Positions 14,232 through 22,481 of a DNA stretch of 64,000 nt are shown here, piece after piece (within the stretch, counting starts at the first letter, position 1; the number at the start of each line of letters is the position of its first letter). A program made the translations under genes and the position numbers. This DNA is from Chromohalobacter beijerinckii (GTDB lineage: Bacteria; Pseudomonadota; Gammaproteobacteria; Pseudomonadales; Halomonadaceae), in assembly GCF_023061185.1 (NCBI RefSeq), contig NZ_JAKGAK010000009.1:1-64000 (forward strand), in the 5' to 3' direction. Below the pieces are notes generated by a model, which had not been told where the DNA came from, ran no database searches, and saw only the letters and a list, made by a program, of their open reading frames with translations.

Positions 14232-14243
14232 CCATAACCCAGC

Positions 14244-14265
14244 AGGCGGGGACTCTCCCCCGCCT
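14244..14265 (+). terminator. Hairpin after the NhaC-family gene
   Basis: AGGCGGGG and CCCCGCCT arms around a 6-base loop lie 12 bases past the stop codon. No U tract follows. The remaining ~220 bases up to the SDR stop show no convincing gene. Confidence 0.4.
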
Positions 14266-14489
14266 CGCAGGCCATCGGACACAGGAGCGCCACGGAACCG
14301 TACCGGCGTTTCCTGCCCTGTATGGCGACGATCTTCACGCTAGGTGCGCAGCACAGCTCGCTACCGGGGCAGCGTTTTGTCCCTATTCGCGATCTGATCA
14401 CCAACGCCACCCTCTGCGCTATGGAGGCGAAGGTGTTGAGCGGATAGATGCAGCATTTCGACGAGTAAAAGGAAGGCTAACGAACACCT

Positions 14490-15449
14490 TCAGGCGCGCC
14501 CCTGAATGCCCTTAAGCCATTGCCAATAATCGTGCAATCCTTCTCGGATATCGGTGAACTTTGGGGCAAAGCCTATTTCTCGCTCCGCCAACGAGATATC
14601 CAGCGGTGCGCCACGGCCCACGAATACGCCAGGTCCAAGCTGGACGTTGGATGTCTTTCCGATCAGATCGGCGACATGCTTGATGATGTCGGTGTGTGCC
14701 ACCGTCACGCCGCTGGAGATATTGAAGTTGCGGTGAGTAACGCTTTCCTTTTCGAACAGCTGCACGATGCCGGTCGCCGTGTCATGCACGTGGGTCCAGT
14801 CCAAAGCCTGTTCCGAGCCATTGGGAGCTAGAATGTTATCCAGCCCTTCCAAGGGACCAAACATGGCTTGATAGACTTGGTGCATGTCCGAAGGACGCTT
14901 GCCAGGGCCGTAGACAAAGAACAACCGGGCATTTCTTACGTCCATGCCGAAAGTATCTGTGTACTGCAAACCGAACAATTCGCCCGCGATCTTGGTGGCT
15001 CCATACAGATCGGTCGCCTTGTAGGGTGTCGCCTCGCTCTGTGGGCCCGACGCATCGCCATACACGGCACCAGAGCTCATATTGACCACTTTTTTGATAC
15101 CCAAGATACGACAAGTCTCAAGCACATTAAGAGTGCCATTGGTGTTGATAGTGGTGTGCTTGTACGGCCGTGTTTGAAAATTCGGCCCAGCGATCACCGA
15201 GACACCATGAATCACTCCCTCTAAGTCTCCTCGATGTCGCAGCATGACTTCGAACAAGCTGTGATAGTCCAACACATCGATACTTTCCAGAATCAGCTTG
15301 TCGCGAACCGTTTCCAGATAGTCAAGCCCTAAATTCTCGAAACGGCCTGCTGCCATATCGCAGATAATGACTTGCTTGCCCTGCTTGGCTAATTGGTAGG
15401 CCACCCAGGAGCCGACGTGGCCGAGCCCACCTGTAATCAATACGGACAT
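14490..15449 (-). CDS. Extended SDR dehydrogenase/epimerase of the acid-sugar locus
   Basis: A 319-residue extended short-chain dehydrogenase (NAD-dependent epimerase/dehydratase family). The NAD motif is TGGLGHVG (Gly7, Gly10, Gly13), Ser125/126 lies in NMSSGAVYGD, and the catalytic Tyr149-xxx-Lys153 is in YGATK. It is the last gene of a minus-strand run with the RuBisCO-like protein and the TRAP transporter, 42 bases after dctM, with AAGGAG 8 bases before the ATG. D-erythronate dehydrogenase (DenD) belongs to the same broad family, so oxidation of a 4- or 5-carbon sugar acid before phosphorylation is a reasonable guess. A nucleotide-sugar epimerase role is not excluded. Base composition is lower in GC than core genes, which hints at transfer. 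Confidence 0.75.
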   Translation of the reverse strand: MSVLITGGLGHVGSWVAYQLAKQGKQVIICDMAAGRFENLGLDYLETVRDKLILESIDVLDYHSLFEVMLRHRGDLEGVIHGVSVIAGPNFQTRPYKHTTINTNGTLNVLETCRILGIKKVVNMSSGAVYGDASGPQSEATPYKATDLYGATKIAGELFGLQYTDTFGMDVRNARLFFVYGPGKRPSDMHQVYQAMFGPLEGLDNILAPNGSEQALDWTHVHDTATGIVQLFEKESVTHRNFNISSGVTVAHTDIIKHVADLIGKTSNVQLGPGVFVGRGAPLDISLAEREIGFAPKFTDIREGLHDYWQWLKGIQGRA

Positions 15450-15491
15450 GGAAAACTCTCCTTATTTTACATTATTACTAATTTTTGCTGG

Positions 15492-16790
15492 TCAACCAAG
15501 AATCAAACTGGGCAAAAACATGACGATCGATGGAAAACACGTAATGATCAGAAGCACCACGAACAAAGGGATATAGAAAGGTATGGTCTCCCGTACCAAT
15601 CCTACGAATGACATCCCGGTTATTTTTTGTATGGTGAATAGGACCGTACCCACCGGTGGCGTGATCAAACCGATCATCAAGGTAAAGATCATGACCACAC
15701 CAAAGTGCACGGGGTCGATGCCATATTGAGTCACTACCGGTACCAACAGGGGGGTCAAGAGAAACAAAGCCGGTACCGAGTCGATAAACAACCCGATCAG
15801 CAGGATGAACACGACCAACAACAACATCAGGCCGAGCGGATCGGTCACAGTAGCCAACAGAAAATCCGCTACTAACGCTGTGACTTGGTAACGCGCCAGC
15901 ACCCAGCTATAAAGAGCGCTTCCAGCAATGATGAAAAGCAGTGCGGCAGTATCGATGGCAGTGGCTCGGAGAATCCCCAGAAACTCCCTAAAGGTGATCG
16001 AGCGATAAACCAGGAACGAGATGATCATGCAATACAACAGGGCAATCACCGAAGCTTCTGTAGGCGTAAACACGCCTGAGAGAATCCCCACGATGATGAT
16101 CAACGGGGTCAACATAGGTAACAGCCCACGCGAAAGCGCCCGCAAGACATCGTTGAGGCGTGCCCGAGTTCGTGTAGGGAATCCACGGCGATGTGAAATG
16201 ATAGCCACCATGAGCATCAGTCCCAGCCCCATGAACAAACCGGGAATGATCGACGCGAGGAAGATAGAAGCAATTGAAGCATTCGCCAAAGCCCCGTAAA
16301 TAACGGCGGGAATACTGGGTGGAATGATCGGACCGATAGTGGCTGAACTGGCGGTGACAGCAGCACTGAACCCCGTTGGATATCCATCATCCTCCATGGC
16401 TTTTATTTCCAACGCTCCAAGGCCACCGGCATCAGCGACTGCCGACCCCGACATACCTGCAAACAGCATGCTAGCTACCACGTTGACGTGGCCCAACCCC
16501 CCTTTGAAATGGCCAACCATGGTACGTGCCACGTCGAAAACGCGGTCCGATATGCCTGCCGAATTCATCAAGCGGCCAATGAAGAGAAAAGCAGGAATAG
16601 CCAACAAGGTAAAACTGTTGACTCCATAAAGAGTGCGCTGAGAGATCATTTCTATGGGAATGGCATCGAAGCCCCGCGTATAGCCCAATACGAGGGCAGA
16701 AGACGCGATCATGGCAAACGCGACGGGGACGCCCAGCATTAGCAGGACGATCAACCCAATGAACATGATGGTGAATACTTCCATAGTCAT
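15492..16790 (-). CDS. dctM: TRAP transporter large permease, DctM family
   Basis: A 432-residue integral membrane protein with about 12 segments, the usual DctM size. Typical blocks are GVPVAFAMIASS, the long FAGMSGSAVADAGGLGALEIKAM, SSATIGPIIPPSIPAVIYG and the C-terminal GLITPPVGTVLFTIQKITG. It is the Na+-coupled transport subunit of a tripartite (TRAP) uptake system. Its ATG overlaps the dctQ stop (ATGA). A second ATG two codons later has better spacing from GGAG and may be the true start. It lies in the acid-sugar locus between dctQ and the SDR. Confidence 0.92.
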   Translation of the reverse strand: MTMEVFTIMFIGLIVLLMLGVPVAFAMIASSALVLGYTRGFDAIPIEMISQRTLYGVNSFTLLAIPAFLFIGRLMNSAGISDRVFDVARTMVGHFKGGLGHVNVVASMLFAGMSGSAVADAGGLGALEIKAMEDDGYPTGFSAAVTASSATIGPIIPPSIPAVIYGALANASIASIFLASIIPGLFMGLGLMLMVAIISHRRGFPTRTRARLNDVLRALSRGLLPMLTPLIIIVGILSGVFTPTEASVIALLYCMIISFLVYRSITFREFLGILRATAIDTAALLFIIAGSALYSWVLARYQVTALVADFLLATVTDPLGLMLLLVVFILLIGLFIDSVPALFLLTPLLVPVVTQYGIDPVHFGVVMIFTLMIGLITPPVGTVLFTIQKITGMSFVGLVRETIPFYIPLFVVLLIITCFPSIVMFLPSLILG

Positions 16791-17302
16791 AGACTCCGGC
16801 GTTGATCGCTAACGGGCAGACAGATAGACACGATTCGTCGGTACAAATTGACAAGTAAGATGCCCATCATCAGGAGAGCGGAGATCATCTGGACCAAATA
16901 GATATAGGAAAAACTCATATCGAATGTGCTAGCCATGACACCCGCCGTGCGCTCCATCATGTTCCAGGCACCACCTATCAACATCAGCAGCACCAACATG
17001 CAAGCAATATCTGCCAAGATACCTGCCAGATGACGCAGGGGACGCGGTAGCATATCGGTCACGACAGTAATCCGAATGTGTTCCTGCAAGCGCAGCGCTA
17101 ATACGGAGCCCAAGAAAATTTCAGCGAGGAACAGGTAGCGCGAGGCTTCATCGGTCCAGGGAACTGCCATGCCCAGGGCATAGCGCGAGATGACCTGGAT
17201 CGCCATGATGATCAGCATCAGAGCGAAAGCCGTCATGACGATGGCGGTCAAAAGCTTCCAAAACAGATCGACCATATAGGTGATACGTTCCGCGTTTTTC
17301 AC
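16787..17302 (-). CDS. dctQ: TRAP transporter small permease, DctQ family
   Basis: A 171-residue membrane protein with four hydrophobic segments. It shows the DctQ pattern of QVISRYALGMAVPWTDEASRYLFL, with the Trp-Thr-Asp/Glu-Glu motif, and ALRLQEHIRI after the second segment. The start is taken as GTG at 17302 because GGAGGT lies 7 bases before it; the longest frame adds 28 residues with no family resemblance. It ends inside the dctM start (ATGA overlap), so the two subunits are probably translationally coupled. Confidence 0.88.
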   Translation of the reverse strand: MKNAERITYMVDLFWKLLTAIVMTAFALMLIIMAIQVISRYALGMAVPWTDEASRYLFLAEIFLGSVLALRLQEHIRITVVTDMLPRPLRHLAGILADIACMLVLLMLIGGAWNMMERTAGVMASTFDMSFSYIYLVQMISALLMMGILLVNLYRRIVSICLPVSDQRRSL

Positions 17303-17386
17303 AGGGAGACCTCCGTGCAGAGGTAGGTCGTAAAGGATAGCGAAGGCGGCCCGGCAACTCCGATGAGCGCTGGACCGCCCAGCCAC

Positions 17387-18361
17387 TTACTCGATCAGCG
17401 ACAATACGTAGTCGCGTACCTGTGGGTTATAGCCTGAGGCGATCTCACGAATGGCGGGTTTCGCCGCTTCACGGAAGGCGGCAACGTCCGGTTCCACGAC
17501 CTCCATTCCCTCTTCTTTAAGCTCGGCGTACGTTTCCTCCTGCCCATTGGCTACCATATCGTCGCCCCATGCGGTGGCTTCTTCGATGGCGCCGAGAATG
17601 ATCTCGCGGTTCTCATCGGAGAGCCCCTCATAGAAATCCTCGTTCATCAGCCAATGGAAGAACGAATACACATGCTCGGTCCGATTGACGTAATCCTGTA
17701 CCTCATAAAGCTTACCGGCCTGAATCAAATCGACCGGATTTTCCTGCATCTCGATCACCCCGGTCTGCAGCGATGTATAGACTTCAGGCCAGGCGATGGG
17801 GCTCGGTAGCGCTCCGATCTGCTTCCAGATTTTGATCCAAGGCGCAATCTCTGGCACCCGCATACGCACCCCCTGGATATCGTCGGGAGTTTTAACCGGG
17901 AAGTTAGAGGTCAGGTTCCGCGGATTACGTGCCGAGAGTCCCACCAGCCTGAGATTGCCATTGGCCACCAATTGCTCGTTGAGCAATTTTCCACTCTCGC
18001 CGCGATAAACCTCACGAGCTTCATCGCTGGAACTGTAAACAAAGGGTAGGTCGGCCGCGGCAAACTTCTCCGCGTATAGCGTCATGGGCATCGACCCCCC
18101 CAGAGCGATGTCATATTCACCGTAACTCGCCCCTTCCAACTGGTCGCGTTCTCCTCCGACTTCGGTACCCAGCAGGGTCACCGAGTATTCACCGTCGGTT
18201 TGCGACTCGATACGTTGCTTGATCCTCTCCCCGATCTTGAACATGGGGTGTGAAGGTTCCACGTGCAGAGCAATGGCCATTTCCTCGGCCGAAGCGTTCG
18301 TTGTAGCTCCCAGAGTGATGAGACCGGCGAGCACGATGCCGCTAGCTTTTATTGTCTTCAT
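17387..18361 (-). CDS. dctP: TRAP transporter solute-binding protein, DctP family
   Basis: A periplasmic substrate-binding protein of 324 residues with a signal peptide (MKTIKASGIVLAGLITLG..., cleavage near NASA-EE). DctP-family blocks are ALHVEPSHPMFKIGERIKQRIE, EVGGERDQLEGASYGEYDIALGGSM, RVPEIAPWIKIWKQIGALPSPIAWPEVYTSLQTGVIEMQENPVD (conserved Arg and Pro-x-x-E/Y-x-x-L-x-x-G elements) and YSFFHWLMNEDFYEGL. TRAP binding proteins recognise organic acids and sugar acids, consistent with the surrounding genes. AGGAGA precedes the ATG, and 57 upstream in-frame residues were rejected. The gene follows the RuBisCO-like protein by 47 bases. Confidence 0.92.
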   Translation of the reverse strand: MKTIKASGIVLAGLITLGATTNASAEEMAIALHVEPSHPMFKIGERIKQRIESQTDGEYSVTLLGTEVGGERDQLEGASYGEYDIALGGSMPMTLYAEKFAAADLPFVYSSSDEAREVYRGESGKLLNEQLVANGNLRLVGLSARNPRNLTSNFPVKTPDDIQGVRMRVPEIAPWIKIWKQIGALPSPIAWPEVYTSLQTGVIEMQENPVDLIQAGKLYEVQDYVNRTEHVYSFFHWLMNEDFYEGLSDENREIILGAIEEATAWGDDMVANGQEETYAELKEEGMEVVEPDVAAFREAAKPAIREIASGYNPQVRDYVLSLIE

Positions 18362-18408
18362 GTCGGCTTCTCCTTGGCGGATTGAGCTTGGTTGGCGTAA
18401 TCGCTGCT

Positions 18409-19698
18409 TCATCCTGAAAACGGGCTGCGAAAAGCCCGCAACGCGACCGCAAGGTCGGGTTCCTGCTTGGCGTGATCCTCCAGGGAGACGCCAATGGACG
18501 CGGCCTCCCATGCGGCACGTATGCTGCGACACCCGGCGGCGACGCCATCGGGGTGAGCCATGATGCCTCCCCCGCAGGTGTAGATCAGATCGGTCGACTG
18601 CAACTGTTGGAAGGTGGGGCGTGCTTGATGAACGGTTTGCGCCGAAGAAAATACCGGCATGGCACGGTCATCGCGCTCCGCTCTCTCAAGCAATGGCGTA
18701 AGGCAGGCGCGAGCGGAGTCCATGACCGAGGCATCCTCTTCAGCGAACTTGCTGGCGAGACCGTTGACATGTAGGTGATCGGCTCCCGCCAGTCGCAACA
18801 AAGCCTGATAAGCGCGATAGCTAATACCGAGCTTTGGATGACGATAGAACGTGCCCCAGCCATTGCGGTGGCCGTGAATTGCCAATTGCGAGTGGCGCCG
18901 CAGCGCAGCCAGTGCTCCCAGGCCAATCCAGTTGACACTAGCCATGACGCACGTCCCCCCATGATCGCGGACCAGATCGTGACGATGGCGCATCTCGTCG
19001 GTATCGCCCGTGATATTGAAGGCATACATCGGCTTACGCCCGGTCCGCTGAGCATGCTCGTTGATGACCTGCATGATCGCAGGCACCCGCTCGCTCAGCG
19101 GCGAATAGGGAGGATCGGCAATCAACTCATCATCCTTGATGAAGTCGATGCCCCCTTCGATGAGCCGTTTGACCAGTGCCGCCGTTTCCTCTGGGGTAAG
19201 CCCGACGCTCGGCTTGATGATGGTGCCGACCAAAGGGCCTTGCTCGGTACCGGAAAGCCGTCGGGTGCCTTCGATGGAGAATTGCGGGCCTGGAAATGCT
19301 TCGATAAAGCAGGCCGGCATGACCAGATCCGTTAGGCGTATGCCAGAGAGCTCACGGAGCTCGGTGAGATTGCCAAATACCGTGGCCAATAAGTTAGGCA
19401 GACTTGTCCCGATGTTTTCGAGTGGCCATGACAGAACCACATCGGCAGATGTGTAGGTGTCTCCGGGTAGAGCCCCCGGCAAGGAGGGCGTGGCGCCGAC
19501 CTCCAGACAGGTCACCGACTCGACCCGGGCAGCATGGCGCTCACGCAGCGCCTCAGTCTCTCCAGCCAGCTTGAGGAACGTGCCGGAGGATTGTTCGCCG
19601 GCCATCGCCTCGGCAGCCCGTTCGGGGTCACACGGGGTCTCGATACGGTAGCGGGCAGTGATCCGTGGCAATTGCCCTTCATGCCGGGATAACTCCAT
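18409..19698 (-). CDS. RuBisCO-like protein (form IV), likely 3-oxo-acid-4-phosphate decarboxylase
   Basis: A 429-residue RuBisCO large-chain homologue. Aligning to plant RuBisCO numbering by motif, it keeps Glu60 (E35), Thr65 (T40), Lys175 (K162 in IIKPSVG), the carbamylated Lys201 with Asp203 and Glu204 (FIKDDE, K188/D190/E191), His327 (H310) and loop-6 Lys334 (K317, exactly 7 residues later), and the phosphate-binding Gly403-Gly404 (CGGGIM). It has lost Lys177 (Ser), Thr173 (Ile) and Asn123 (Thr), so CO2 fixation is unlikely. Beside a DUF1537 kinase this pattern fits OiaX, 3-oxo-isoapionate-4-phosphate decarboxylase; the exact substrate is inferred. AGGAG lies 8 bases before the chosen ATG; an upstream ATG at 19749 has no comparable site. 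It is the first gene of the minus-strand arm. Confidence 0.85.
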   Translation of the reverse strand: MELSRHEGQLPRITARYRIETPCDPERAAEAMAGEQSSGTFLKLAGETEALRERHAARVESVTCLEVGATPSLPGALPGDTYTSADVVLSWPLENIGTSLPNLLATVFGNLTELRELSGIRLTDLVMPACFIEAFPGPQFSIEGTRRLSGTEQGPLVGTIIKPSVGLTPEETAALVKRLIEGGIDFIKDDELIADPPYSPLSERVPAIMQVINEHAQRTGRKPMYAFNITGDTDEMRHRHDLVRDHGGTCVMASVNWIGLGALAALRRHSQLAIHGHRNGWGTFYRHPKLGISYRAYQALLRLAGADHLHVNGLASKFAEEDASVMDSARACLTPLLERAERDDRAMPVFSSAQTVHQARPTFQQLQSTDLIYTCGGGIMAHPDGVAAGCRSIRAAWEAASIGVSLEDHAKQEPDLAVALRAFRSPFSG

Positions 19699-19762
19699 TG
19701 GCGTGCTCCTGCCGACCAGAACCGGTCGTTTGTCGTTGTTATCAAACAAGCTAGCATGGGCT

Positions 19763-19782
19763 TTTTGGTAGCGCTACCAAAA
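19763..19782. promoter_or_regulatory. LacI-family operator 1 (perfect palindrome)
   Basis: TTTTGGTAGC joined to its exact complement gives a 20-bp perfect palindrome with the central CG of LacI/GntR-type sites. It lies 65 bases upstream of the RuBisCO-like start, in the divergent region shared with the LacI-type gene. Confidence 0.8.
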
Positions 19783-19807
19783 GCAAGGACATTTGACTTA
19801 GACTTAT

Positions 19808-19821
19808 TGGTAGCGCTACCA
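19808..19821. promoter_or_regulatory. LacI-family operator 2 (same core)
   Basis: TGGTAGCGCTACCA repeats the core of operator 1. Centres are 42 bp apart, four helical turns, so two dimers would sit on the same face of the DNA. A TTGACT -35-like element lies between them, and TACAAT at 19854-19859 is a plausible -10 for the regulator gene. Confidence 0.8.
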
Positions 19822-19882
19822 GATCATTCCCATCAGAATGGGATAGTAGGAATACAATCTGTACAGCACGAGGACACCTTTC

Positions 19883-20929
19883 ATGGCAAAAGAGAAGCCA
19901 TCACCGCGGGGCAGACGCCGCCATCATGGCGACAACCGAGTCACCATCGACGATGTGGCAAAAGAAGCTGGGGTGGCCCCGATTACGGTATCTAGAGCTT
20001 TGAACACGCCCGATAAGGTGTCATCAAAACTACGCGCACGTGTCGATCAGGCCGTGACATCACTGGGTTATGTCCCCAACCTCATCGCCGGAGGTCTCGC
20101 ATCAGCGGGCACGCGAGTCATCCCGGTCGTGGTGCCATCGCTATCCATCCTGACCTTTATCGAGGTAGTACACGGCATCCAGCAGACGCTCGAAGACGCT
20201 GGCTATCAAGTGTTATTGGGCTCGACCGATTTCGACTTGGACCGTGAAACATCACTGATCGATTCGGTGCTGGGCTACTCGCCGTCGGGCGTCATTTTGA
20301 CTGGTCTAAAACATAACGATAGCACCGTGCAACGCCTCAAGACCTGGGGCCGGCCAGTGGTCGAGATCATGGAGTTGGGGCTGCCTTGCATCGATATGAA
20401 TGTCGGTGTCGACAACCCGCGAGCGGGGGCCTGTATGGCCCAGCATCTCCTTGACCGTGGTTATCGACGCATCGCTTTCCTCGGGGTCGGGATGGCGCGT
20501 GACTATCGTGCCCGGCAACGTTTCGAAGGACATCGCGAGGTGCTGGCTGCCGCAGGGGTCGAGAGTGACCTTCTGTTTACGAGTGAGGAACCATCCTCTT
20601 ATGCAGCAGGACGCCGTGTTTTCCTTGAAGCGCTGGCTGCCCGCCCCGACCTCGATGCGCTTCACTTTGCCAACGACAACCTCGCAGCCGGCGCGATCCT
20701 CGAGGCAAACCGTCAGGGAATCCGCATGCCTGACGACATTGCCATGGGCAGCTATCTGGGTCTGTCTCTCGGCGAACACCTATCGCCTACGCTGACCACC
20801 GTGTCGGTGCCACGATTCGAAATGGGAGTCGAGGCGGCGAAGCTACTGCTGGAACGGCTAGAAGGTCGACCGCCTTCTCAACCTCGGATCGATATCGGCT
20901 ATCGCTTGATCGCACGCGAAAGCACTTGA
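19883..20929 (+). CDS. LacI/GntR-type transcriptional repressor of the acid-sugar locus
   Basis: A 348-residue LacI-family regulator. The N-terminal helix-turn-helix and hinge read VTIDDVAKEAGVAPITVSRALNTPDKVSSKLRARV...LGYVPNLIAGGLAS (about residues 20-75), followed by a periplasmic-binding-protein-like effector domain (VVPSLSILTFIEVVHGIQQTLE, IAFLGVGM, ALHFANDNLAAGAI). The DNA-reading helix resembles the gluconate-repressor group, which binds GGTAGCGCTACC-like sites; two such palindromes lie just upstream. Effector is probably the transported acid or an intermediate. It runs with the kinase gene 25 bases downstream and is divergent from the RuBisCO-like/TRAP/SDR arm. Confidence 0.92.
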   Translation: MAKEKPSPRGRRRHHGDNRVTIDDVAKEAGVAPITVSRALNTPDKVSSKLRARVDQAVTSLGYVPNLIAGGLASAGTRVIPVVVPSLSILTFIEVVHGIQQTLEDAGYQVLLGSTDFDLDRETSLIDSVLGYSPSGVILTGLKHNDSTVQRLKTWGRPVVEIMELGLPCIDMNVGVDNPRAGACMAQHLLDRGYRRIAFLGVGMARDYRARQRFEGHREVLAAAGVESDLLFTSEEPSSYAAGRRVFLEALAARPDLDALHFANDNLAAGAILEANRQGIRMPDDIAMGSYLGLSLGEHLSPTLTTVSVPRFEMGVEAAKLLLERLEGRPPSQPRIDIGYRLIAREST

Positions 20930-20954
20930 GGATAGGCAATGGGGAGATCATGGC

Positions 20955-22271
20955 ATGAAACAACTTTTGGCCGCCTTCTATGGCGATGATTTCACAGGCT
21001 CGACAGAAAACTTGGCGCAATTCTGCCGCCATGGGCTTCGGGGCAGATTATTCTTCACCAGCAGCAATCGGGAGGCGATTCTTGAGATGGCCTCCGAACT
21101 GGACGTAGTGGGACTAGCAGGCACAGCTCGTGGCCTGGCTCCCTCGGCAATGACCGAGGAAGTGGCCCCTGCTCTTGCCTTGTTAGACACCCTCAACCCC
21201 CGCCTCAAGCAGTTTAAGATTTGCTCGACTTTCGATTCCTCGCCCACCATCGGTAGCATAGGGCATGTCATGGATCTAGCCCGACGCCGATGGCCGGAAT
21301 GTGCTCTTCCCATCTTGCCTGCCACGCCGGCTTTTGGTCGGTACACGGCCTTTTCCCATCTGTTTACACGTTATGAAAACGAAATATGCCGTCTGGATCA
21401 GAACCCTGCGATGGCATATCACCCATCGACCCCAATGGGCGAAGCCGACCTACGGCGTCACCTCATGGCGCAGACCGCCATCCCTCCGGGAGCGGTCACG
21501 TTGCTGGATTATCAACGGCACGACGGCGGCTGGCAGTGCTTGGCATCCGCCGTAGAAGAGACACGCTTCGTGGTTATGGATGCGACACAAGCAGCTGAGA
21601 TGCATCATGCCGCCAAGCTTATTCTTAAGCTTGCCGAGCGACATCCCACCCTTGCAGTAGCGGCGCAGGGTCTGGCCGATGCCCTAGGTGGACTGGTCAC
21701 GCGCGACATGGAACAACGCGAGCCACTGCCCACGACGTATCCTGGAGTGGATAGGCTACTGGTGCTATCCGGCAGTTGCTCGCCCCAGACCCGTAAGCAA
21801 CTCGCACACTTGGAAGCGCAAGGTGGCTGCATCGTGACGATCTCCCCCATGGAGGCATTGCGTTCCCCTGGTGCGTTATCGAAAAGGCTCGCTCACGAGG
21901 TGATGGGCGCCTTCACCCAGAGCCAGATGGTCGGTGTCGCGACGACGCTCCAAGACGCCGATCTCGTCGATGAGCTAGCTAGTGATCGTTTATCGCTGGC
22001 AGTGGGAGAAGTATACGCTCTCTTGGCTCAGCACCTTCGTCGAGAAACAGCCATCCCCCGTATCGTTTTCGCCGGCGGTGACACATCCAGCCATGCCATG
22101 CGCCGTATCGGCGCTGATGCCCTGGAGTTGGTTGCTTTCGATGAGACACAGGGTGGTCATCTATGTCGCCTCATCGCTCCCGGCTCACCGATAGAGGGAT
22201 TGGAGGTAGTGCTCAAGGGCGGCCAGATCGGAGGAGAAGACTTCTTTTCGCGGACGCAGCGAGGCACATAG
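20955..22271 (+). CDS. DUF1537 acid-sugar kinase (OiaK/OtnK type)
   Basis: A 438-residue four-carbon acid sugar kinase family protein (former DUF1537). The N-terminus has the substrate-binding FYGDDFTGSTEN, the variant I associate with isoapionate-type kinases rather than the plain ADDFTGA form. The middle holds KICSTFDSSPTIGSIGHVMDLA, and the C-terminal nucleotide domain contains LSGSCSPQTRKQL and FAGGDTSSHAMRRIGADALEL. The family phosphorylates 3-oxo sugar acids at the terminal hydroxyl, producing the substrate for a decarboxylase. Here the only decarboxylase candidate is the divergent RuBisCO-like protein. It lies 25 bases after the LacI-type gene. The substrate is not readable. Confidence 0.85.
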   Translation: MKQLLAAFYGDDFTGSTENLAQFCRHGLRGRLFFTSSNREAILEMASELDVVGLAGTARGLAPSAMTEEVAPALALLDTLNPRLKQFKICSTFDSSPTIGSIGHVMDLARRRWPECALPILPATPAFGRYTAFSHLFTRYENEICRLDQNPAMAYHPSTPMGEADLRRHLMAQTAIPPGAVTLLDYQRHDGGWQCLASAVEETRFVVMDATQAAEMHHAAKLILKLAERHPTLAVAAQGLADALGGLVTRDMEQREPLPTTYPGVDRLLVLSGSCSPQTRKQLAHLEAQGGCIVTISPMEALRSPGALSKRLAHEVMGAFTQSQMVGVATTLQDADLVDELASDRLSLAVGEVYALLAQHLRRETAIPRIVFAGGDTSSHAMRRIGADALELVAFDETQGGHLCRLIAPGSPIEGLEVVLKGGQIGGEDFFSRTQRGT

Positions 22272-22481
22272 GCACTCATCCGTGTATAAGACGGCGGCGG
22301 AGCCTTTGACGGCTTCCGAGAAAGCAAGCAGACCACTACTATGGCCAACCGTCACCCACGGAGTCGAAACCACTACTCATCCTCGACCATTGGCGTAGAA
22401 CCATCCCGATTTTGACCGTAATCGGCTACCCTTGCGTCTTCGGCTTTGCCGCCGTGCTGCATTACCTTTCGATTTCCAAGG

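Follow-up and report, generated by a model that had tools for sequence, protein, structure and literature searches.

The locus described here lies in a 64,000-nucleotide stretch of Chromohalobacter beijerinckii DNA (positions 1 to 64,000 of contig NZ_JAKGAK010000009.1; "the window" means this whole stretch). It joins a RuBisCO-like protein (RLP), a DUF1537 sugar-acid kinase and a TRAP transporter to an extended short-chain dehydrogenase/reductase (SDR), which probably takes over from the oxidoisomerase ApnO in supplying a 3-oxo acid to the kinase/RLP pair. Its seven genes form two divergent arms flanked by a Na+/H+ antiporter gene on one side and a CynX-like permease gene on the other, the leftward arm being ordered RLP, DctP, DctQ, DctM and extended SDR, and the rightward arm LacI-family regulator and DUF1537 kinase (Table 1). 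A preliminary description made from the sequence had counted six genes plus operators in one divergent unit; the genes that it named, their arrangement and the operators stand, but the genes number seven. The TRAP transporter is complete, with PF03480, PF04290 and PF06808 all above cut-off, and DctM is 82-95% identical across 16 SDR-bearing stretches (L136-L151). The closest solved chains are 4pc9 for DctP and 3nwr for the RLP. The starts of DctQ, DctP and the RLP were chosen from the sequence and from orthologues, and RLP residues are numbered along the 446-amino-acid open reading frame (ORF) from the TTG at 19749.

Table 1. Genes and operators of the SDR-RLP locus (positions in the window)
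Feature	Position	Strand	Remarks
Extended SDR (PF01370)	14490..15449	-	319 amino acids; PF01370 132.7 bits against a gathering score of 20.9; predicted NAD-dependent sugar-acid 3-dehydrogenase replacing ApnO
TRAP large permease DctM	15492..16790	-	PF06808 400.6 bits
TRAP small permease DctQ	16787..17275	-	PF04290 93.4 bits; ORF open from 17386
TRAP solute-binding protein DctP	17387..18361	-	PF03480 202.6 bits; ORF open from 18532
RLP	18409..19698	-	PF00016 223.9 bits; ORF reaches TTG at 19749
Operator 1	19765..19780		perfect 16-base palindrome; 14-base core 19766-19779
Operator 2	19807..19822		same 14-base core, 19808-19821; outer pair with one mismatch
LacI-family regulator	19883..20929	+	PF00356 and PF13377
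DUF1537 (SBD_N/NBD_C) sugar-acid kinase	20955..22271	+	PF07005 150.1 bits, PF17042 80.8 bits

The operators are borne out by palindrome statistics and by core copies in whole genomes. With up to two mismatches allowed, the window contains no match to the operator core beyond these 2, where 0.13 would be expected by chance, and this number was reached in 1 of 100 shuffles. Whole-genome scans gave 32 copies of the exact 14-base core in 22 of the 25 SDR-bearing genomes found below and none in seven genomes lacking the SDR, while a reversed control pattern matched once each in three of the 32 genomes. The core copies whose places were compared sit upstream of the LacI gene of the SDR locus, and two (G069 and G070) of the three SDR genomes without an exact core (the third being G081) hold paired one-mismatch copies there. 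The LacI protein, 60-88% identical at the remaining SDR loci read, looks like a dedicated local regulator because the core copies lie upstream of its gene.

The locus is an acquired island at a variable site, as its lower guanine-plus-cytosine content had already suggested. This content is 0.558 in the locus and 0.622 in the window outside it, and the lowest value among 204 pieces of equal size taken from elsewhere in the 64 kb is 0.594. All nine other genomes of the genus have no match to the RLP or the SDR, and all nine keep both flanking genes. The site is held to be variable because the gap between these flanks differs, measuring 1.2-1.7 kb in six genomes and 3.6 kb in a seventh, while the two that carry other cargo have gaps of 10.7 and 13.2 kb. 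At the place corresponding to 14232-22445, four of these genomes, judged by sequence starts, showed a single 278-amino-acid ORF, PAAR-like ORFs or large ORFs resembling type I restriction-modification genes.

D-apionate catabolism, as reportedly described by Carter et al. in 2018, proceeds via ApnO, OiaK and then OiaX/OiaT. ApnO, a PGDH_C protein, was not found in the window genome at E 1e-30 with a query that was named from its domain and neighbourhood and matched no curated ApnO model. In a sample of 275 Halomonadaceae genomes, searched at E 1e-60 for the SDR and at 1e-40 for the RLP, SDR matches occur in 25 and RLP matches in 55, and all 25 SDR genomes also have an RLP (hypergeometric p 1.5e-20, uncorrected for kinship), so that the co-occurrence in other genomes on which the preliminary description had staked its reading is strong. 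ApnO is present in 31 of the 275 genomes at 77-100% identity, and at least 77% identical copies are kept in 14 of the 25 SDR genomes. A relative at 41-45% occurs in 15 more family genomes (g8, g9, g20), which are without any RLP match.

Three arrangements of the SDR module were found. Type A, as in the window, reads LacI-kinase / RLP-DctPQM-SDR and occurs in 11 genomes, with the cluster split by contig ends in G076. Type B reads LacI / DctPQM-SDR-RLP-kinase (G025, G031, G198 and G271); its RLP and kinase are of the kind that otherwise accompanies ApnO, and none of the four whole genomes has an ApnO match. Type C consists of LacI / DctPQM-SDR alone in ten genomes, in nine of which the 19 kb around the module were read and neither RLP nor kinase was found there; all ten hold an ApnO-RLP pair elsewhere (p 2.6e-11). 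The 14 SDR genomes that keep ApnO are these ten and four of type A. Within the class of 35 RLPs at 56-60% identity, ApnO lies within 3 kb on the same contig for 31 (19 directly adjacent, 12 separated by about 3 kb), and the SDR is adjacent for the other four. Trees were computed for chosen subsets of 58 RLP, 66 kinase and 23 SDR rows, a distant long-branch outgroup being removed from the RLP tree. Since the four type B SDRs join a type A one (G093) at 98/94 while the type B RLPs join an ApnO-operon RLP at 100/99, one SDR-TRAP-LacI cassette is used with two RLP/kinase pairs. This alternation strongly supports the earlier proposal that an SDR takes the place of the oxidoisomerase, and it is most simply explained if the 3-oxo acid delivered by the SDR is that of ApnO or closely resembles it.

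Eighty loci (L001-L080, 65 of them in stretches of at least 15 kb) were taken from 568 relatives. A kinase is present in 77 of the 80, and ApnO in 61 of the 75 loci L006-L080. In L023, L051, L064 and L080, where ApnO was not found, a classical (FabG-like) SDR follows the RLP-kinase pair; it is 60-61% identical to that of the Rhizobium locus L185, so that an SDR of another type occupies this position.

The dehydrogenase of the window belongs to the extended SDRs, with PF01370 above its gathering score and the Y-x3-K motif at Y149/K153. TGGLGHVG, D31, S125/S126, Y149 and K153 are invariant among six orthologues and presumably have the functional meaning usual for such motifs. The candidate D-erythronate dehydrogenase DenD (NF043036) was rejected at 41.5 bits against a cut-off of 325. 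Threonine 3-dehydrogenase entries are among the solved relatives, and the SDR-type threonine 3-dehydrogenase is a mechanistic precedent. At 1e-60, 369 genomes of the class returned only the window's own SDR, and at 1e-40, 72,556 plasmid records returned one relative, 62% identical, from Paroceanicella. There the SDR follows DctPQM and faces genes annotated as OtnK and an aldolase in the OtnC position, and no other oxidoreductase was found between the SDR and OtnK-OtnC. Furthermore, OtnK-OtnC directly follows the window-type kinase in three of the 11 type A genomes (G078, G093, G100), and G079 makes a fourth case, its OtnC being preceded by an OtnK spread over two frames; within the available stretches it was not found in the window or the other six. 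OtnK and OtnC act on 3-oxo-tetronate. Because SDR relatives adjoin these genes, the neighbourhoods suggest that the SDR oxidises C3 of four-carbon-backbone acids and that the kinase-RLP pair takes a product outside the reach of OtnK-OtnC. No report of this SDR together with an RLP was found among the titles and opening abstract lines of open-licence literature.

The RLP had been named OiaX and assigned a decarboxylation, and neither proposal was upheld as it stood. It scores 470.4 bits with the NCBIfam model for OiaX (NF042437) against a cut-off of 700, which Rhizobium and Agrobacterium proteins pass with 759.0 and 740.4 bits. Seven other RLPs (two from Xanthobacteraceae and one each from Vreelandella, Paraburkholderia, Shinella, Granulosicoccus and Aromatoleum) reach 447-478 bits, and the ApnO-linked Halomonas RLPs that were scored, at 466-470 bits, were likewise rejected as canonical OiaX. 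RuBisCO form III (TIGR03326) was rejected at 250.8 bits against 497.45. The DK-MTP enolase MtnW, a grouping that would have spoken against the preliminary description, lies far off at 191.0 against 409 and 142.0 against 513.6 bits, a judgement from curated scores since the trees are without that family.

Conserved residues set the RLP apart from OiaX. The comparison covered 122 of 126 rows, leaving out the incomplete L008, L024 and L177 and the outgroup L210. Its OiaX set comprised six proteins, two scored with NF042437 and four called OiaX by record name, and its wider set 79 rows, namely the RLPs of L006-L080 minus L022, L008 and L024, plus seven from Halomonas. Among 22 columns that separate these two sets, the window-type RLPs match the wider set in 21 and OiaX in one. 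E52, N127 and H327, which align to E63, N126 and H329 of Cupriavidus CbbL, are present in all ten window-type and all 79 wider rows, with D, G and Q in all six OiaX rows. The H325 position holds H in 10/10 window-type and 76/79 wider rows and Q in 6/6 OiaX rows, and S368 (the S379 position) is S in 10/10, 76/79 and 0/6, OiaX having C or G there. Relative to CbbL, the positions of K175, the carbamylated K201, D203, E204, H294, K334, E60, N123, H325, H327 and S379 are all kept, these names (E60, N123, H327, S379 and so on) following spinach RuBisCO numbering. The RuBisCO active-site residues of the wider group, K179, K205, D207, E208, H294, H327, K334, G393 and G394, are likewise kept in the RLP. 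In the tree, the window-type RLPs and OiaX form separate clades at 100/100 each.

The sequences point, somewhat more than evenly, to chemistry like that of OiaT rather than OiaX. OiaT is the 3-oxo-isoapionate-4-phosphate transcarboxylase/hydrolase, whose products are 3-phosphoglycerate and glycolate. OiaT-like chemistry is favoured because the RuBisCO residues are kept, because five sampled Xanthobacteraceae loci (L023, L055, L057, L071, L077) carry wider-group RLPs, which are 55-61% identical to the window RLP, and because relatives of the erythrulose-phosphate isomerases LerI/DerI were found in none of the 80 stretches L001-L080, being present in three of six OiaX loci. PMC6302742, citing Carter 2018, names decarboxylation and transcarboxylation/hydrolysis as the reactions of the A. 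radiobacter K84 and X. autotrophicus RLPs, which we read as respective, giving decarboxylation to K84 and transcarboxylation/hydrolysis to X. autotrophicus. Decarboxylation thus appears the less likely of the two reactions for the window RLP. The glycolate oxidase GlcD is uninformative on a glycolate product, as it matches in all 31 genomes searched for such downstream enzymes at 1e-60, those without an RLP included (12 of 31 over the curated cut-off). A TIM relative was found in 31/31 of these genomes, an RpiB relative in 16/31 and a 54-57% LerI relative in 8/31.

Two further kinds of RLP neighbourhood were encountered. Loci L165-L180 (Halomonadaceae), L203 (a Paracoccus marcusii plasmid) and L206 (an Azospirillum plasmid) hold RLPs of a third class, which has 19 family matches and 46-52% identity to the window RLP. 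TRAP genes are present in these loci, and the RLP is preceded by a VOC-family protein and followed by a DUF1537 kinase; the VOC gene is present in 16 of 17 loci searched, L164 being the exception. In L203 and L206 the RLP has no annotated dehydrogenase beside it, and this class may therefore have a redox-free entry chemistry. Pyruvate kinase genes lie near RLP-kinase pairs in L207 (a Rhodococcus plasmid) and L208 (a Bradyrhizobium plasmid), with a glycerate kinase in L207; such neighbours would fit 3-phosphoglycerate as RLP product.

The kinase stands out within the locus. As OiaK (NF042436), the name given in the preliminary description, it scores 256.6 bits against a cut-off of 700 and was rejected; the type B kinase in L022 also falls below this cut-off with 491.6 bits. 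The 3-oxo-tetronate kinase OtnK (NF043035) was rejected at 136.7 against 350 bits, and in the kinase tree five OtnK-labelled rows (one annotated, four labelled in this analysis) stand apart at 100/100, while a sixth, L073_5593p, bears the label wrongly and falls among the RLP-linked kinases. D-threonate kinase, a grouping that had been held to tell against the proposal, is far off by curated score, at 62.9 against 450 bits, the tree being without that family. Identity is 30-40% to kinases beside other RLPs and 32-33% to the type B ones. The overall order of oxidation, phosphorylation and RLP reaction is supported, but the names OiaX and OiaK and the decarboxylation are not.

A pathway is proposed in which every reaction, substrate and product is a prediction from gene content and homology. 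The locus would be a catabolic island under LacI control that breaks down a branched sugar acid with four backbone carbons. This acid would be imported by DctPQM, and the extended SDR would oxidise its C3 hydroxyl with NAD+ to a 3-oxo acid in one step, without group migration, joining the apionate route at the point where ApnO delivers 3-oxo-isoapionate. Isoapionate (2-C-hydroxymethyl-tetronate), converted to 3-oxo-isoapionate by plain dehydrogenation, would be the simplest substrate of this kind. The DUF1537 kinase would phosphorylate O4, and the RLP, which keeps the metal-carbamate site of RuBisCO and its carboxylate-handling residues, would act like OiaT, moving the carboxylate and splitting the chain hydrolytically into 3-phosphoglycerate and glycolate. 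Taken jointly, the SDR role and OiaT-like chemistry, with the substrate open within the four-carbon-backbone class, come a little short of an even chance. Isoapionate itself is a tentative assignment, the best guess because C3 oxidation of four-carbon-backbone acids is suggested. The fullest version is possible but doubtful: an undescribed entry in which an SDR isoapionate 3-dehydrogenase, possibly acting on plain tetronates too, feeds OiaK/RLP-type pairs directly and replaces the oxidation-plus-migration of ApnO, in which the RLP, with its RuBisCO residues intact, carries out the later half of RuBisCO's reaction catabolically, placing the carboxylate and cleaving the C-C bond by hydrolysis, and in which TRAP-SDR-LacI is a swappable module that has been combined with two or more RLP/kinase pairs, and its TRAP-SDR part also with OtnK-OtnC. 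If true, this would be a new entry enzyme for RLP catabolism. The residue signature may serve to tell true OiaX decarboxylases from RLPs in which the carboxylate-handling residues of RuBisCO are retained, and because operons otherwise alike alternate between SDR and ApnO, a few purified proteins would suffice to test for the shared intermediate.

Several observations weigh against this pathway. The genomes are related, so that the counts are not independent. No exact LacI site away from the SDR locus was found in whole-genome scans of the SDR-bearing genomes, and the ApnO-RLP operon lies beside a GntR-type regulator in five of the ten type C genomes (those read there). The window-type kinase is sister (99/97) not to ApnO-linked kinases but to those of Rhizobium/Agrobacterium loci without ApnO, where OiaX is accompanied by a classical SDR and a BKACE-family protein. 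In the RLP, column 213 matches OiaX, and an approximately unbiased test did not reject window-type RLPs and OiaX as one clade (p 0.458), so the tree comparison that the preliminary description had proposed gives a separate clade and leaves a joint one unrejected. LerI/DerI is likewise missing from the stretches of three of the six OiaX loci. A 54-57% LerI relative exists in 8 of 24 SDR genomes (6/11 type A, 2/9 type C, 0/4 type B), which lowers the estimate for OiaT-like chemistry, and 12 of the 24, among them the window genome, have an RpiB relative; erythrulose phosphate could thus be used in some SDR genomes. The likening of this RLP group to OiaT rests on family-level Xanthobacter kinship rather than on a characterised sequence, and we know of no natural source of isoapionate.

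One rival is the version given in the preliminary description, in which the RLP is an OiaX-type decarboxylase and the SDR/kinase product yields L-erythrulose-1-phosphate and CO2. That version appears rather unlikely. It agrees with the top curated matches of the RLP (OiaX) and the kinase (OiaK), with the unrejected joint clade, with the kinase's nearest outside relatives lying in OiaX loci and with the LerI and RpiB relatives just counted. However, the two proteins fall far below their cut-offs, that for OiaX being passed by the Rhizobium and Agrobacterium proteins, the OiaX residue signature is absent from the RLP, the single LerI-query match of the window genome is at the level seen in every genome searched, with no 54-57% relative there, and the four type B genomes have no RpiB match. 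That the SDR performs the full ApnO oxidation-plus-migration on D-apionate is highly improbable. The SDR does take the place of ApnO beside the RLP in four genomes without an ApnO match, but it would be redundant in the 14 SDR genomes that keep ApnO, and to our knowledge extended SDRs have no migration activity.

The kinship of the kinase raises a different substrate, the six-carbon acid hamamelonate (2-carboxy-D-arabinitol), which the SDR would convert to 3-keto-hamamelonate, the kinase would phosphorylate at O5 and the RLP would break as in the D-hamamelose pathway. Hamamelonate is a plausible plant acid, 2-carboxy-D-arabinitol being the dephosphorylated night inhibitor of RuBisCO. The loci L185, L186, L187 and L208, on Rhizobium, Agrobacterium and Bradyrhizobium plasmids, hold an RLP (annotated OiaX in the first three) and a DUF1537 kinase, aldo-keto reductases and a 3-keto-5-aminohexanoate cleavage protein, with an SDR by the kinase in three of the four and a lactonase-family protein in two; ApnO was not found in their stretches. 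They may be hamamelose loci, because the published hamamelose pathway ends in an RLP, and hamamelonate therefore stays a live rival. The kinase of the window is sister to those of ApnO-less loci with SDR and aldo-keto reductases, one of which also has a lactonase-family protein. This second published RLP route (partial texts PMC10176493 and PMC8914248) had not been considered in the preliminary description, and the accessible part of PMC8914248 describes the RLP of the Ochrobactrum anthropi hamamelose cluster second-hand and names 3-phosphoglycerate and glycolate ambiguously. On the other side, the SDR occurs with ApnO-linked-type kinase/RLP pairs in types B and C, SDR relatives or window-type kinases adjoin the four-carbon-acid enzymes OtnK-OtnC, and neither lactonase nor aldose dehydrogenase was found among the seven genes, so that hamamelonate is judged unlikely. 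Those OtnK-OtnC neighbours, in Paroceanicella and in four of 11 type A genomes, could also mean that the SDR and transporter serve plain tetronates by the OtnK-OtnC route and that the RLP/kinase pair is an unrelated passenger. This is very unlikely, as every one of the 25 SDR genomes has an RLP and one operator-bearing intergenic region serves both arms; the presence of OtnC itself discriminates little, because an OtnC-level match occurs in 160 of the 275 genomes.

Set beside known systems, the proposed SDR-kinase-RLP pathway shares with the D-apionate route, for whose enzymes the accessible part of PMC11747546 gives EC names, a DUF1537 kinase and an RLP, and four relatives use a pair of the ApnO-linked kind with the same SDR; it differs in that the window genome has an extended SDR and no ApnO match and in its distance from the type B kinases. 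With OiaT of Xanthobacter autotrophicus it shares RLPs of the wider group, as carried by the five Xanthobacteraceae loci, but the window-type RLPs form their own clade, and the likeness is one to Xanthobacteraceae relatives rather than to a characterised sequence. The D-hamamelose RLP of O. anthropi, reportedly described by Kim et al. in 2018 and compared by description only, likewise ends a branched-sugar route for which 3-phosphoglycerate and glycolate are mentioned in what is available of PMC8914248; the seven genes of the window differ in being without a sugar dehydrogenase or lactonase, and no Ochrobactrum record was among the 14 matches listed for the hamamelose-cluster question. A further known system is the tetronate route through OtnK and OtnC, reportedly described by Zhang et al. 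in 2016, in which a 3-oxo acid, a DUF1537 kinase and C-C cleavage follow one another and to which an SDR relative is adjoined in Paroceanicella. OtnC is an aldolase-type decarboxylase, and where that route has OtnC, the window has an RLP.

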